Shown: positions 17,087 to 31,600 of the stretch, piece by piece
How positions within the stretch are numbered: the first letter of the stretch is position 1
Layout: each line of letters begins with the position of its first letter
Assembly: GCA_030597965.1 (NCBI GenBank)
Contig: JAUVQU010000002.1
Span: forward strand, 1-35,857
Length of the DNA: 35,857 nt
Direction of reading: 5' to 3'
Source: Cellvibrionaceae bacterium
GTDB lineage: Bacteria > Pseudomonadota > Gammaproteobacteria > Pseudomonadales > Cellvibrionaceae
The notes under the pieces: generated by a model
The model's database searches: none
Told to the model about the DNA's origin: nothing
Seen by the model: only the letters and a program-made list of their open reading frames with translations
Position numbers and translations under genes: made by a program

Positions 17087-18214
17087 CTATACGGCAATGC
17101 TGGGCAATTCAACCTCTTTCACCGCACCATGTTCCACGTGAAACATCTTTGTACAATCTTGCGTCTTTAGCTTATCTGGCCATGCAGCAAGTAAAATTTC
17201 CTGATCTACACCAGTAACAAACACCTGGGCCTGCATATCACAGAGCCAACCGGCCAATGTCGCCCTGAAATGAGCATCGAGCTCGGCTGGTAAATCATCA
17301 ATCAAGTACACACACTGGCGGTCGGTTTGCTGGCTAAACACCAGGCCCTGTGCGATCAAGAGCGCACAAGCTACAATCTTTTGCTGTCCTCTCGACAAAG
17401 TGTCGGCAGCCAAGTGGCGCCCAACCATCACGCGAATATCAGCTCGCTGCGGGCCCTGCCGTGTATACCCAAGGTCAATATCGCGCTGCTGGTGCTCTGC
17501 CAATAAAGCCTCTAATGTTTGTTCCCTGTCCCACCCTCGGTGGTAATTGAGAGCAACATCCGACAATCCTTCCAAACCACCAACCAAGCCTCTGTAGGCT
17601 TCGCTTAACCGCTCAAACACCCTTGCCCTCATCTCATCTATGGAGTGGGCCAATCGTGCCAGCTCGGCATCCCAGGGAGCCAGCTGTAAAGGATCTATTT
17701 TATCACGTCGGAGCAAACTATTGCGGTGTTTTAAGCACTTTTGTATGCCTTTCCACACACTTAAAAAGGAAGGTTCCACGTGAAACACTAGCCAGTCTAA
17801 ATACTGTCGCCTCACCGATGGTGACCCGCCCAACAAATCAAAAGCGCTGCTGTCAATTGCCAGTACGGGAAGGTTTTCAGCCAACTCAATCGCGGACAAA
17901 ACATTGCGACCATCAATACGAATAATCCCATCACCACTGCGTTCACGCTGAACACCCACGGAAACTTGTCCAGCAACATCCGAAACAGACTCCACCTTAC
18001 CGAACACAGTAAAAGATGGCTGGTCATACTGGATCATGGTTTTATGTTTTCGTGAGCGGAAAGATCGACCCAAAGAGAGGATGTTTATGGCCTCAAGCAA
18101 ACTGGTTTTACCGCTGCCATTAGCGCCATAGATAATATTGAGCCGTGTGGCTGGCTCAATATCTATAGATTGAAGATTGCGGAGGTTTTGCACTGACAGA
18201 CATCTTAAAGACAT
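17087..18214 (-). CDS. recF: DNA replication/repair protein RecF
   Basis: IIYGANGSGKTSLLEAINILSLGRSFR (Walker A), LSRGQQKIVACAL signature, YLIDDLPAELDA (Walker B). Confidence 0.98.
   Translation of the reverse strand: MSLRCLSVQNLRNLQSIDIEPATRLNIIYGANGSGKTSLLEAINILSLGRSFRSRKHKTMIQYDQPSFTVFGKVESVSDVAGQVSVGVQRERSGDGIIRIDGRNVLSAIELAENLPVLAIDSSAFDLLGGSPSVRRQYLDWLVFHVEPSFLSVWKGIQKCLKHRNSLLRRDKIDPLQLAPWDAELARLAHSIDEMRARVFERLSEAYRGLVGGLEGLSDVALNYHRGWDREQTLEALLAEHQQRDIDLGYTRQGPQRADIRVMVGRHLAADTLSRGQQKIVACALLIAQGLVFSQQTDRQCVYLIDDLPAELDAHFRATLAGWLCDMQAQVFVTGVDQEILLAAWPDKLKTQDCTKMFHVEHGAVKEVELPSIAV
17130..17145. promoter_or_regulatory. parS: parS centromere-like site
   Basis: TGTTCCACGTGAAACA matches the general parS consensus TGTTNCACGTGAAACA; parA and parB are in the same window. 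Confidence 0.85.
17772..17787. promoter_or_regulatory. parS: Second parS-like site within recF
   Basis: GGTTCCACGTGAAACA, one mismatch (first base) to the 17130 site. Confidence 0.75.
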
Positions 18215-20979: not shown

Positions 20980-21098
20980 TGTTTTCCCTCACAAGGAGCT
21001 GATATCTTTAAAAGTAAAAATTATTTTTATTGAAACGATTATGCAAGCAGACCTGCCTGTAAGCCGCGTAATTTTATTATGTGAAGCCACAACAAATG

Positions 21099-21362
21099 TG
21101 TGAACAACTTCCGCTTAAAGATTATTTAATAAGTCGTCAAAAACAGGCTGTGTAAAACTTACTGCTTATTGTAATATCAGTGGATTAAGTTATCCACAAA
21201 AAACTTAATTGCATCGCACATTTTTATAAAAAACTAATAAAATCAACAAGTTAAAATAAATCGCTGCTTATTTTAACTTGCATGAAAAGAAAAGAAAAAC
21301 TCCACTTTCTGCAGGCGTCTGTTGATAAGTCTGTGATTAAGTTGGATATAAGATGTGGATTT
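21099..21362. promoter_or_regulatory. DnaA-box-containing dnaA-rpmH intergenic region
   Basis: Perfect TTATCCACA at 21190-21198. Degenerate boxes on the minus strand at 21099-21107 (TTGTTCACA), 21149-21157 (TTTTACACA), 21332-21340 (TTAATCACA). Confidence 0.6.
21247..21280. repeat. Perfect inverted repeat in the dnaA-rpmH intergenic region
   Basis: CAAGTTAAAATAA - ATCGCTGC - TTATTTTAACTTG, 13 bp arms, 8 nt loop. Confidence 0.9.
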
Positions 21363-21388
21363 AACGTGGTTATAATTAATTTACATAT

Positions 21389-21446
21389 AAAGAGGCAAAA
21401 GGATTGCACTAATCCCTTAAAATCTATAAAATTCGGCCTCTTTTTT
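21389..21446 (+). promoter_or_regulatory. Candidate attenuator/terminator-like structure in the rpmH 5' leader
   Basis: AAAGAGGC (21389-21396) pairs with GCCTCTTT (21436-21443), running into a T6 tract; inner hairpin GGATT-GCACT-AATCC (21401-21415); TATAAT at 21371-21376 just upstream. Confidence 0.45.
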
Positions 21447-21505
21447 GCGCACCCTCATTATTGTGAATGGTGCAAATATATATTTTAATTCGGCAGGTTA
21501 GTCCA

Positions 21506-25905: not shown

Positions 25906-26169
25906 TTACTCATAGTGAGCCCAAAGCCGCAGAATTTTGATTGCTTTTTCTTCTTCTAGTACTTGATATACCAAACGATGCTGGATATTGATTCTGCGAG
26001 AATATGCTCCCGCTAAATCCCCAACTAATTTCTCGTATGGTGGAGGGTTTTGAAAAGGATTACTCTCAATAGTGCGTAACAATTTCTGGGCTTTATCCTT
26101 TAGTCCAGACGACGCCAATTTACGGGCGTCTTTTTGGGCTTGCTTAGTGTAATAGACTTTCCAAGTCAC
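25906..26169 (-). CDS. Type II toxin, Txe/YoeB family mRNA endonuclease
   Basis: (M)TWKVYYTKQAQKDARKLASSGLKDKAQ...NPPPYEKLVGDLAGAYSRRINIQHRLVYQV...LWAHYE. GTG start at 26169 forms a GTGA overlap with the antitoxin stop. Confidence 0.92.
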   Translation of the reverse strand: MTWKVYYTKQAQKDARKLASSGLKDKAQKLLRTIESNPFQNPPPYEKLVGDLAGAYSRRINIQHRLVYQVLEEEKAIKILRLWAHYE

Positions 26170-26408
26170 CAATCAAGCTCCTGATCGCACTCATCAAGCA
26201 CAGCATCCATGCCTTCCCGAATTGATTCGCGCATACCTGGAATTGATAAGAGGTGCAGAGTCTCATTTACGGCATTCCAGTCCTCTTCAGCCAATAGTAC
26301 GGCGTTACCTCTTTTTCCAGTAATAACAATAGGTTGATGACTGGTAGAGGTTTCATCTATCAGTGTGTAGAGCTTGGAACGAGCTTCTGTTGCATTAAGT
26401 GTAGTCAT
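26166..26408 (-). CDS. Type II antitoxin, Phd/YefM family
   Basis: MTTLNATEARSKLYTLIDETSTSHQPIVITGKRGNAVLLAEEDWNAVNETLHLLSIPG; strong SD (GGAGGTGA) upstream on the minus strand. Confidence 0.93.
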   Translation of the reverse strand: MTTLNATEARSKLYTLIDETSTSHQPIVITGKRGNAVLLAEEDWNAVNETLHLLSIPGMRESIREGMDAVLDECDQELDW

Positions 26409-26493: not shown

Positions 26494-26615
26494 GGGCTGA
26501 CTTTAGCTGATCCCTGCATGCTTTACCTTGTGAATTAGCATTGTTATTGGGGCTGTTCGTGCCGTTGTGCCCGCAACAGCTCTATCAATCGCGATTGTTT
26601 ATACCAACTCATCCT

Positions 26616-26649: not shown

Positions 26650-26662
26650 CCAAAAAATAAAG

Positions 26663-27085
26663 TTATCCACAGAAAAAACTGCCAAATCCTCTAAAAATCA
26701 CAGACTTCGCAAAGGTTATTAACACTCTTTCACAGGTTTATCCCCTAACCTACTGATTTTCATTGTTTTTAAGGTCTTAAAATCGAAGCTTGTGAATAAC
26801 TATCGTATAAACCATAGAGTCTGTACTGGACAAAAATGTTAATAACCCTGATTTCTAAAAAAAGACGCTTTTATCCACATTTCATACTCAGGTTTTTATC
26901 AACAATTGATCAGGAAATACGCAAAAAATACGGACTTTATAAGTGCTACAACCTATTGATTTATATATTTTTAATATGGTTATCCACTGAAAACAGGCTC
27001 AGTAACTATAACAACAATAATTAACTTATATATATACATACATATATTTATTTACTTATTAATTAATAATATTAAAAAAAGCTTC
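26663..27085. other. oriC: Candidate chromosomal replication origin (oriC)
   Basis: Perfect DnaA boxes TTATCCACA 26663-26671 (+), TTATTCACA 26791-26799 (-), TTATCCACA 26871-26879 (+); near-perfect TTATCCACT 26980-26988 (+). Region 27001-27080 is about 10% GC by hand count (8/80), a DUE candidate; mnmG adjacent. Confidence 0.75.
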
Positions 27086-27094
27086 GTTTATTTT

Positions 27095-27124
27095 TTGTAC
27101 AACCATCCTCCCACAACATATAAT
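27095..27124 (+). promoter_or_regulatory. Candidate mnmG promoter at the edge of the AT-rich region
   Basis: TTGTAC (27095-27100), 18 bp spacer, TATAAT (27119-27124). Confidence 0.45.
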
Positions 27125-27183
27125 GCTCGCCCTTTTAAATTTGCCTGTATCTGTAATGGGAATAGGCTCAGTAACAGACAGTA

Positions 27184-29085
27184 GTGAGACATCCTATGGA
27201 CTACCCTAAACACTATGACGTGATTGTCATTGGTGGTGGACACGCCGGTACAGAAGCCTGCTTGGCTGCTGCGCGCATGGGTTCCCGTACTCTGCTGCTT
27301 ACACACAATATTGAAACGCTGGGTCAGATGTCCTGTAACCCGGCCATTGGTGGTATTGGTAAAAGCCACCTGGTTAAAGAGATTGATGCCCTAGGCGGTG
27401 CTATGGCACTGGCTACCGACAAAGGTGGTATTCAGTTTCGTACGTTGAACGCTCGCAAAGGCCCTGCCGTTCGTGCGACTCGCGCCCAGGCCGATCGCGC
27501 ACTCTACAAAGCAGCAATTCGTAAGATTTTAGAAAATCAACCCAACCTCGATATTTTCCAGCAAGCCGCTGATGACTTGATTGTTGAAGCTGATCAGATC
27601 ACGGGTGTAGTAACTCAGATGGGGCTTAAGTTTTACGCACCAAGTGTGGTGCTGACGGTAGGTACCTTCTTGGGTGGTGTGATCCACATTGGTATGGATA
27701 ATCACTCCGGCGGCCGTGCGGGTGACCCCCCCTCGATTGCCTTGGCGCATCGTTTACGTGAGCTGCCACTACGAGTAGACCGTTTAAAAACCGGCACCCC
27801 TCCCCGTATTGATGCCCGCAGTGTCAATTTTGATGGTCTTGAAGAACAATACGGCGATGAAACAACGCCGGTTATGTCTTACATGGGCAAAGACGAAGAC
27901 CACCCTGAGCAGACGTGCTGCTGGATTACCCACACCAACGAGAAGACTCACGATATTATTCGCGCTGGTCTTGATCGCTCGCCAATGTACACAGGTGTAA
28001 TTGAAGGCGTAGGCCCACGCTATTGCCCATCGATTGAAGATAAGATTAATCGCTTTTCAGATAAGAGCTCGCACCAGATATTTATTGAGCCTGAAGGTTT
28101 AACTACTCACGAGCTTTATCCGAACGGTATTTCCACCAGTTTGCCCTTTGATGTGCAGTTGAATTTTTTGCATTCGATCAAAGGTTTTGAGAAAGCTCAT
28201 ATCACTCGCCCTGGTTACGCGATTGAGTACGATTACTTTAATCCGCAGGATTTGAAATACAGTCTGGAAAACAAGTGCATCGGCGGTTTGTTCTTTGCGG
28301 GGCAGATTAACGGCACCACAGGTTACGAAGAAGCCGGTGCGCAGGGTTTGTTGGCGGGTTTGAACGCGTCGCTGAAAGCGCAGGACAAAGGCGTGTGGTG
28401 CCCGCGTCGCGATGAGGCTTACATTGGTGTCTTGGTGGATGACTTGATCACCATGGGTACCCAGGAGCCTTACCGTATGTTCACCAGTCGCGCGGAATAC
28501 CGTTTGTTGCTACGTGAAGATAACGCCGATTTGCGATTGACCGAAAAAGGCCGCGAGTTAGGTTTGGTGGACGATGCCCGCTGGGGCGCCTTCAGCAAGA
28601 AACGTGAAGCGATAGAGCTGGAAAAACAGCGCTTAAGAGACACTTGGATTCAGGCCGGTAGTGATGAGGCTGAATCTTTGAAGGATCGCCTGAAGTCACC
28701 ACTGAATCGAGAATACAGTTTGCATGATCTGCTTAAGCGCCCGGAATTAACTTACAGTGATATTGCCAACTTCAAGGGTGAAGCGGTGGCCGATAAACAG
28801 GTCGCCGAGCAGGTACAGATTGAGGCTAAGTACGCTGGTTACATTGATCGCCAGCAGGATGAAATTGTGCGCTTGCGTCAACATGAAAACACCCCAATTC
28901 CTGCGGAGTTTGATTACAGCACCGTGGAAGGTCTTTCGAATGAAGTGAAGCAGAAGTTGATCGAAGCTCGACCAGAGACCTTGGCACGGGCATCCAGAAT
29001 TCAGGGTATTACTCCGGCGGCCGTATCGCTGTTGATGGTGTATCTTAAGAAACAAGGTCTATTGCGTAAGGCGGCTGTACACTGA
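27184..29085 (+). CDS. mnmG: tRNA uridine-5-carboxymethylaminomethyl modification enzyme MnmG (GidA)
   Basis: [64 protein letters not shown] 27199 (MDYPKHYDV) is the probable start. Confidence 0.99.
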
Positions 29086-29833: not shown

Positions 29834-30637
29834 TTGAGTAAAATCTATGCGATCGCTAACCAGAAAGGTGGCGTTGGTAAAACCACCAGCTGCGTAAATA
29901 TTGCAGCGTCACTGGTGGCCGCCAAGCAAAAAGTATTGCTTATTGATCTTGATCCACAGGGCAATGCAACTACGGGTAGTGGTATCGAGAAGTCTGCACT
30001 GGAATATTCCATTTACGATGTGATGGTGGGTGAAAAAACAGCCGCTGAAGTAATTGAGCCGTCTCCTTCTGGCAAGTTTGATGTGATACCAGCCAATGGC
30101 GATTTAACCGCCGCCGAAGTGGAGCTGCTGTCGCTGCCGAACAAAGAGTTTCGTCTGCGCAGTGTATTGGAAGGTCTTGCTGACCAGTATGATTTTGTTT
30201 TGATTGATTGCCCACCCTCTCTGAACATGCTCACATTGAATGCTTTAACGGCAAGTAACGGTGTGATTATTCCTATGCAGTGTGAGTACTATGCGTTGGA
30301 GGGTTTGTCTGCCTTGATGAGTACGATCAATCAAATTCAGCAGGCGTTGAACCCTAAACTCAGAGTTCAGGGTATTTTGCGCACCATGTATGACCCGCGT
30401 AACAGTTTGACCAACGATGTATCCGCTCAGCTGACAGAGTATTTTGGCGACAAATTGTATAAAACCTGCATCCCAAGAAATGTTCGCCTGGCTGAAGCGC
30501 CAAGTTTTGGTCAGCCAGCGTTGATTTATGATCGCACATCGAAAGGTGCATTGGCTTATTTGGCGTTGGCCGGTGAGATTCTTCGCCGTGAGCGTGCAGC
30601 TCAATCAGAAGTGACAGTGGAAGCTGTTGTTTCTTAG
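29834..30637 (+). CDS. parA: Chromosome partitioning ATPase ParA/Soj
   Basis: IYAIANQKGGVGKTTSCVNIAASL, LLIDLDPQGNATTGSG, VLIDCPPSL; TTG start with AAGGA SD. Confidence 0.98.
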   Translation: MSKIYAIANQKGGVGKTTSCVNIAASLVAAKQKVLLIDLDPQGNATTGSGIEKSALEYSIYDVMVGEKTAAEVIEPSPSGKFDVIPANGDLTAAEVELLSLPNKEFRLRSVLEGLADQYDFVLIDCPPSLNMLTLNALTASNGVIIPMQCEYYALEGLSALMSTINQIQQALNPKLRVQGILRTMYDPRNSLTNDVSAQLTEYFGDKLYKTCIPRNVRLAEAPSFGQPALIYDRTSKGALAYLALAGEILRRERAAQSEVTVEAVVS

Positions 30638-30670
30638 AGATATTTACTTATTAAAACCTAGGGCAAGACA

Positions 30671-31600
30671 ATGGCGGGAAGAAGAAAAGGGTTAGGTAGG
30701 GGCTTGGATGCACTGCTTGGTGGTGCGACAGGTGCTGTTGCTGCCGAAGCCATTGCTGAAGTGAAATCTACCGATCCTGCAGAGAAAATGACCGGCGATC
30801 GCTTAATTGAGATACCGATTGAGTATATTCAGCGCGGTAAGTATCAGCCACGACGCGATATGCATCAGGAAGCGCTGGAAGAACTTGCCAACTCCATCAA
30901 AGCCCAGGGGGTTATGCAGCCGATTATTGTTCGACCAATTGGTGAGCGCGATGGGCACGCCACTTATGAAATAATTGCGGGTGAGCGTCGCTGGCGTGCA
31001 ACGCAATTAGCGGGTCTGGATAAGATTCCAGCCATCATTCGTGATGTGAGTGATGAAACTACCATTGCCATGGCGTTGATAGAGAACATTCAGCGTGAAG
31101 ATTTAAACCCAATGGAAGAAGCGGTCGCCTTGAAGCGGTTGCAGGACGAATTTGAGCTAACACACCAACAGGTAGCGGAGGCTGTGGGTAAATCTCGTAC
31201 CACGGTGACCAACCTGCTGCGTTTGATCGGTTTAACCGATGATGTAAAAACCATGCTGGAGCACGGTGATTTGGAAATGGGCCATGCCCGTTCGTTGTTG
31301 TCACTTGATGCGGCTGACCAACGCAGCGTTGCGCGACAGGTTGTTGCTAAAGGTTTATCCGTTCGCCAAACGGAAGCACTGGTTCGTCGACTGCACGAGC
31401 AACAGCAGAAGCCGATCGTGACGGATATTGTGGATAACAATCACGATGTTGAGAAGCTGGAAGAAAACCTCTCCCAGAAAGTCGGTGTCCCGGTAAAAAT
31501 TAGCTACAATGCTAAGGGTAAGGGTAAATTAGTCTTAAATTACAACAGCTTGGATGAGCTGGATGGTATATTGAGCCACTTGGGTTACAGTGAAGATTAA
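30671..31600 (+). CDS. parB: Chromosome partitioning protein ParB/Spo0J
   Basis: GLGRGLDALLGG, YQPRRDMHQEALEELANSIKAQGVMQPIIVRP, ageRRWRATQLAGL, NIQREDLNPMEEA, VGKSRTTVTNLLRL HTH. Confidence 0.98.
   Translation: MAGRRKGLGRGLDALLGGATGAVAAEAIAEVKSTDPAEKMTGDRLIEIPIEYIQRGKYQPRRDMHQEALEELANSIKAQGVMQPIIVRPIGERDGHATYEIIAGERRWRATQLAGLDKIPAIIRDVSDETTIAMALIENIQREDLNPMEEAVALKRLQDEFELTHQQVAEAVGKSRTTVTNLLRLIGLTDDVKTMLEHGDLEMGHARSLLSLDAADQRSVARQVVAKGLSVRQTEALVRRLHEQQQKPIVTDIVDNNHDVEKLEENLSQKVGVPVKISYNAKGKGKLVLNYNSLDELDGILSHLGYSED

Follow-up and report, generated by a model that had tools for sequence, protein, structure and literature searches.

Where does chromosome replication begin in a bacterium whose genes around dnaA are arranged as in Pseudomonas and whose best-developed cluster of DnaA boxes lies beside mnmG? 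The window analysed here, a contig of 35,857 nt from a member of the Cellvibrionaceae, carries gyrB-recF-dnaN-dnaA, rpmH-rnpA-yidD-yidC-mnmE and mnmG-rsmG-parAB in the Pseudomonas order. The Pseudomonas origin is reported between dnaA and rpmH (PMC3056050, PMC3596284), and in vivo melting at that site has been described in P. aeruginosa (PMC5109545). A sequence-only reading of the window had instead proposed an origin of the E. coli type directly upstream of mnmG, and had called this notable in view of the Pseudomonas-like arrangement of the surrounding genes. Vibrio shares the gene order and has its origin on the mnmG side. Our analyses indicate that the chromosomal replication origin very probably lies at about 26660-27090, as predicted from its sequence, and that this predicted mnmG-side oriC is an ordinary one, well conserved in its family.

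DnaA boxes and an AT-rich element upstream of mnmG

The core array consists of three exact and four one-mismatch DnaA boxes in the gap between a YefM/YoeB pair and mnmG. The features of this region are as follows.

25906-26408, minus strand: YefM-type antitoxin and YoeB-type toxin pair, between mnmE and the predicted origin
26663-26671, plus strand: exact DnaA box TTATCCACA, mnmG-distal end of the array; the family consensus here is also TTATCCACA
26716-26724, plus strand: DnaA box TTATTAACA, one mismatch; the family consensus at the same place is TTATCCACA
26791-26799, minus strand: exact DnaA box TTATTCACA; family consensus TGTGNATAA
26837-26845, minus strand: DnaA box TTATTAACA, one mismatch; aligns with TGNGGATAA of relatives
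26871-26879, plus strand: exact DnaA box TTATCCACA
26896-26904, plus strand: DnaA box TTATCAACA, one mismatch
26980-26988, plus strand: R1-like, mnmG-proximal DnaA box TTATCCACT, one mismatch; the conserved unwinding element begins here
27001-27085: DNA unwinding element, about 7-15% GC
27002-27025, plus strand: conserved tract of trinucleotide repeats, GTAACTATAACAACAATAATTAAC, separated by 13 nt from the R1-like box and supported by the family alignment and the profile
27119-27124, plus strand: TATAAT, family-conserved and probably the -10 box of an mnmG promoter whose -35 box would be TTGTAC at 27095-27100
27145: minimum of the cumulative GC skew (leading/lagging switch)
27199-29085, plus strand: mnmG (gidA; PF01134, E 2e-167), predicted first gene of the right replichore

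The three perfect boxes of the sequence-only reading (exact TTATNCACA at 26663 and 26871 on the plus strand and at 26791 on the minus strand) and its near-perfect plus-strand box at 26980 were all recovered, the last with its single mismatch; the one-mismatch boxes at 26716, 26837 and 26896 are additions to its list. A further near-consensus box that it had placed at 26529-26537 on the minus strand is present, as TAATTCACA, but is probably no part of the array. We set it aside because the surrounding stretch fails to align among relatives. The three exact boxes fall within 559 bp, for which simulation gives a mean of 0.046; none of 5000 simulations at local composition reached three. Over the whole window, boxes with at most one mismatch are not in excess (36 observed, 33 expected), so it is the clustering that counts.

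The AT-rich run described earlier, about 85 bp at about 10% GC on the mnmG-proximal side, is borne out by 60-bp windows of 7-15% GC between 27000 and 27099. The least stable 80-mer of the entire window lies here as well, at 27001-27080 (75.9 kcal/mol; next 88.8, median 111). Boxes, AT-rich run and mnmG follow one another in the order that had been given. The TATAAT and TTGTAC further downstream are, to judge by their sequence, a probable mnmG promoter.

A conserved box-spacer-repeat element

Alignment of the gap across the family reveals a conserved unit composed of the box TTATCCACA, 13 nt, CTAATAATAACAACAA, and then AT-rich DNA. A first scan for a box followed after 12-14 nt by CTAATAA, with fixed mismatches, gave many chance matches; we replaced it by a 46-nt profile of the whole box-N13-repeat unit, derived from 21 relatives and not from the window. 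Its score at 26980 is 39.3 bits, compared with 7.9 bits for the runner-up in the window; the simulation maxima were 15.5 (200 whole windows) and 20.1 (2000 local-composition sequences). In all 26 family loci for which both gaps could be read, the mnmG gap outscored the dnaA-rpmH gap (19-49 bits versus at most 13); as most of those loci trained the profile, independent tests come from the window and from non-family loci. The window deviates from the family consensus in its R1-like box (TTATCCACT) and in its repeat tract (GTAACTATAAC for CTAATAATAAC), which counts against an origin here.

In its DnaA box, 13-nt spacer and trinucleotide repeats, the unit resembles the BUS/DnaA-trio arrangement, and the spacing fits the published box-to-trio peak of 10-13 bp (PMC8287927). 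The family consensus reads 3'-GAT-TAT-TAT-TGT-TGT-5', that is, three trios with a middle adenine (GAT TAT TAT). The window departs from the known system here: several of its own trios lack the middle adenine, and fewer than three have it. We infer that the tract at 27002-27025 occupies the position of the DnaA-trio, or single-strand DnaA site. An Rfam search of the window gave no match.

Strand composition places the switch beside mnmG

Skew provides a test that is independent of the boxes. The window is one entire contig of a 260-contig MAG, and the skew of the source genome therefore covers that contig alone. From the left end onward, cumulative GC skew declines steadily; it reaches its minimum at 27145 and then climbs. 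The sequence-only reading had named a skew minimum at dnaA-rpmH or elsewhere as grounds for abandoning the mnmG site; so far as this comparison is possible, it favours that site, with the window minimum at 27145 and no switch at dnaA-rpmH. When the plus strand is read, all genes left of 27145 have negative third-position skew, whichever strand they occupy, including rnpA, yidD, yidC and mnmE. In mnmG the value is close to zero, and it is positive for rsmG, parA, parB, atpI, atpB, atpF and atpH, so that the sign changes between mnmE and rsmG irrespective of gene strand. The agreement of left-side genes on both strands means that transcription does not explain the skew. The partial atpA on the right side is an exception, with slightly negative skew, and counts against an mnmG-side origin.

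The rnpA-yidD-yidC-mnmE block sits between the two candidate sites, and its composition therefore decides between them. On coding strands, fourfold-site skew is -0.39 (95% -0.50 to -0.28) for rnpA-mnmE, -0.01 for gyrB-dnaA and +0.06 for mnmG-atpB. The block thus has the composition of a lagging strand, which places the origin to its right.

In three single-contig relatives, the local skew minimum is no more than 0.15 kb from the start of mnmG (-22 in G022, 200 kb examined; over 120 kb each, -22 in G012 and +139 in G035). Counting against the site are minima at +4.2 kb in G031 and +28 kb past the mnmG start in G034, and some family loci with local minima several kb distant. Samples taken around the whole G034 chromosome nevertheless show one sign change across mnmG (3.79 Mb), from 3.69 Mb to 3.91 Mb, and another near 1.5-1.7 Mb. 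Raw cumulative minima were erratic in 20-kb Pseudomonas loci because skew is weak there, and we therefore compared a third-position block contrast measured on coding strands. Its mean is -0.21 in the family-group loci (n=26) versus +0.03 in the Pseudomonas-group loci (n=49). The Pseudomonas value fits the reported dnaA-rpmH origin, so the method passes this control.

Two box clusters and the comparison with Pseudomonas

The window holds a second cluster of boxes, missing from the earlier reading, in the gap that would correspond to the Pseudomonas origin.

20980-21505: dnaA-rpmH gap, the rival site; one exact and four one-mismatch DnaA boxes, without a match to the unwinding element or a skew switch

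It is possible to imagine a bipartite origin, in which melting takes place at mnmG and the dnaA-rpmH cluster, some 6 kb off, provides a further DnaA site. Box clusters do occur in both gaps in nearly all relatives, and two autonomously replicating elements, one of them essential, are reported from P. aeruginosa in PMC4403523, which refers to Yee and Smith 1990 and Jiang 2006. Nevertheless, self-regulation of dnaA can explain the boxes in its own gap, and within this family the element is found in the mnmG gap only, which makes a two-site origin very unlikely.

Alternatively, replication might start in the dnaA-rpmH gap as in Pseudomonas, the mnmG cluster being a leftover or a regulatory site. 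The boxes of that gap, its two low-stability stretches, and the origin and melting reported from Pseudomonas would all suit this reading. It would, however, make rnpA-mnmE leading, where the composition is that of a lagging strand, and the gap has no skew switch. Its best score for an unwinding element is 0.0 with the Cellvibrionaceae profile, against 39.3 at mnmG, and -43.5 with a Pseudomonas profile; the active element reported from the Pseudomonas gap, TTATCCACAGA-N11-CTAGCTTTTATAAGC, is missing from that of the window. In Pseudomonas, moreover, the same block contrast shows no lagging block. We consider a dnaA-rpmH origin in this genome highly improbable. That the mnmG cluster merely titrates DnaA or regulates the mnmG promoter, as the conserved promoter-like TATAAT just downstream might suggest, is extremely unlikely, since the skew minimum, the unwinding element and the conserved 13-nt geometry would be left unexplained.

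Pseudomonas shares the box-N13-CTA element. In most Pseudomonas loci tested such an element lies beside mnmG, at -194 to -236 where found, and the Cellvibrionaceae profile gives it about 20-30 bits. Many have a second, different element in the dnaA-rpmH gap. The mnmG-side cluster of Pseudomonas thus matches that of the window in place and in kind of element, but has no skew switch. We infer that it is probably the second of the replicating elements of P. aeruginosa. The contrast with Pseudomonas that had seemed notable is real, but the Pseudomonas-like arrangement is less striking than had been proposed: the same gene order accompanies an mnmG-side element in most of the family, and Pseudomonas retains such an element as its second one. 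Nor can the compact order be taken as a sign of a dnaA-side origin. A compact gene cluster around dnaA does not reveal where replication starts.

Of 63 Pseudomonas loci (L012-L081), 38 have the gammaBOriS motif for Pseudomonas origins, TCTATCCACAGAA (PMC7174414), upstream of mnmG, and one has it in the dnaA-rpmH gap. This distribution suggests that gammaBOriS may have been trained to recognise the mnmG cluster and not the origin reported for Pseudomonas.

Comparison with E. coli oriC and its regulation

The oriC of E. coli K-12, between mnmG and mioC, likewise lies directly upstream of mnmG. In both, DnaA boxes are followed by an mnmG-proximal unwinding element, and the mnmG-proximal box has the same orientation and stands 13 nt from a CTAA-type tract. 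The string TTATCCACA-N13-CTAATAA occurs once in 40 kb of E. coli K-12, at R1 of oriC, 176 bases before mnmG; the window has a substituted version, TTATCCACT-N13-GTAA, also as a single site. Unlike in E. coli, the array of the window is longer (about 320 bp from the outer to the R1-like box, versus 180 bp), its outermost box is oppositely oriented, and dnaA is only 6 kb away. The YefM/YoeB pair stands where E. coli has mioC; in relatives, this place is taken by various other genes or by none. The full 46-nt profile did not recover E. coli oriC, and we therefore claim homology for the short signature alone. Common descent of the two origins is plausible on the grounds of position and that signature.

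The control of initiation is another matter. The window has one GATC, versus 15 in the E. coli stretch; SeqA was not found in 59 genomes, and the Dam family had no match in six genomes, the source genome included. It follows that regulation must differ from that in E. coli. The earlier label of an E. coli-type origin is therefore apt for the position, the side of the unwinding element and the R1-N13-CTAA geometry, and does not extend to Dam/SeqA control. A second protein with a Bac_DnaA domain, about 240-280 aa long and probably Hda, is encoded in all six genomes examined.

Partition functions are encoded close by, as would fit an origin region.

17130-17145, plus strand: parS, exact match to TGTTYCACGTGAAACA, within recF
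17772-17787, plus strand: parS, one mismatch, within recF
29834-31600, plus strand: parA and parB

Proposed initiation and the helicase loader

Boxes, unwinding element, geometry, family conservation and the strand-composition switch are seen in the sequence; to these, known oriC biology would add DnaA binding, melting and helicase loading. DnaA may occupy the boxes starting on the mnmG-distal side and ending with the R1-like box at 26980. An ATP-DnaA filament would extend from this box onto the single strand of the repeats (27002-27025), which lie 13 nt further on, and would melt the AT-rich DNA of 27001-27085. DnaB would then be loaded and two forks would depart: the first would pass through mnmG-rsmG-parAB-atp and the second through mnmE-yidC-rnpA-rpmH and dnaA-gyrB.

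DciA (PF05258) was not found in any of 120 family genomes from 32 genera, and is present in several other families of the order. No dciA-like gene stands between lpxC and the next long ORF in six loci (L204-L209), and no host DnaC was seen in the six genomes examined. The absence of DciA agrees with, and extends, a remark that Cellvibrionales lack both DciA and DnaC/DnaI (PMC5109545). We suggest, tentatively, that the mnmG-side origin of this family could work without either known helicase loader, with DnaB loaded by an unknown protein or by DnaA alone. A DnaC-like ATPase in the source genome (L212, G000:C161) was considered as a host loader and rejected, since the contig that encodes it is phage DNA and also has terminase-, endolysin- and Rz-like genes. 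This contig, a phage or prophage of 9.7 kb, had its genes called by eye.

Implications for origin prediction and origin movement

The predicted site gives this family an origin position 5-9 kb from the one that Pseudomonas, its closest studied cousin, uses. Origin prediction and coverage-based growth-rate estimates in the family should use the mnmG side.

In Porticoccaceae (L006, L011, L022, L056, L076), the rpmH-rnpA-yidD-yidC-mnmE block is inverted between dnaA and mnmG, with rpmH 0.6-0.7 kb from mnmG. The inversion makes the block co-directional with replication from the mnmG side. The block contrast is gone in these five loci (mean +0.05, with a wide spread), and a clear element is kept at mnmG in four of them. 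With Pseudomonas, which has an element in both gaps, and Porticoccaceae, with their inverted block, the order is a good system for studying how origins move. Oceanospirillum multiglobuliferum (L009) carries a strong element in each gap, of 31.5 bits at -193 and 34.7 bits at -9640 from mnmG, and it is possible that this species has two origins or an origin that has recently moved.
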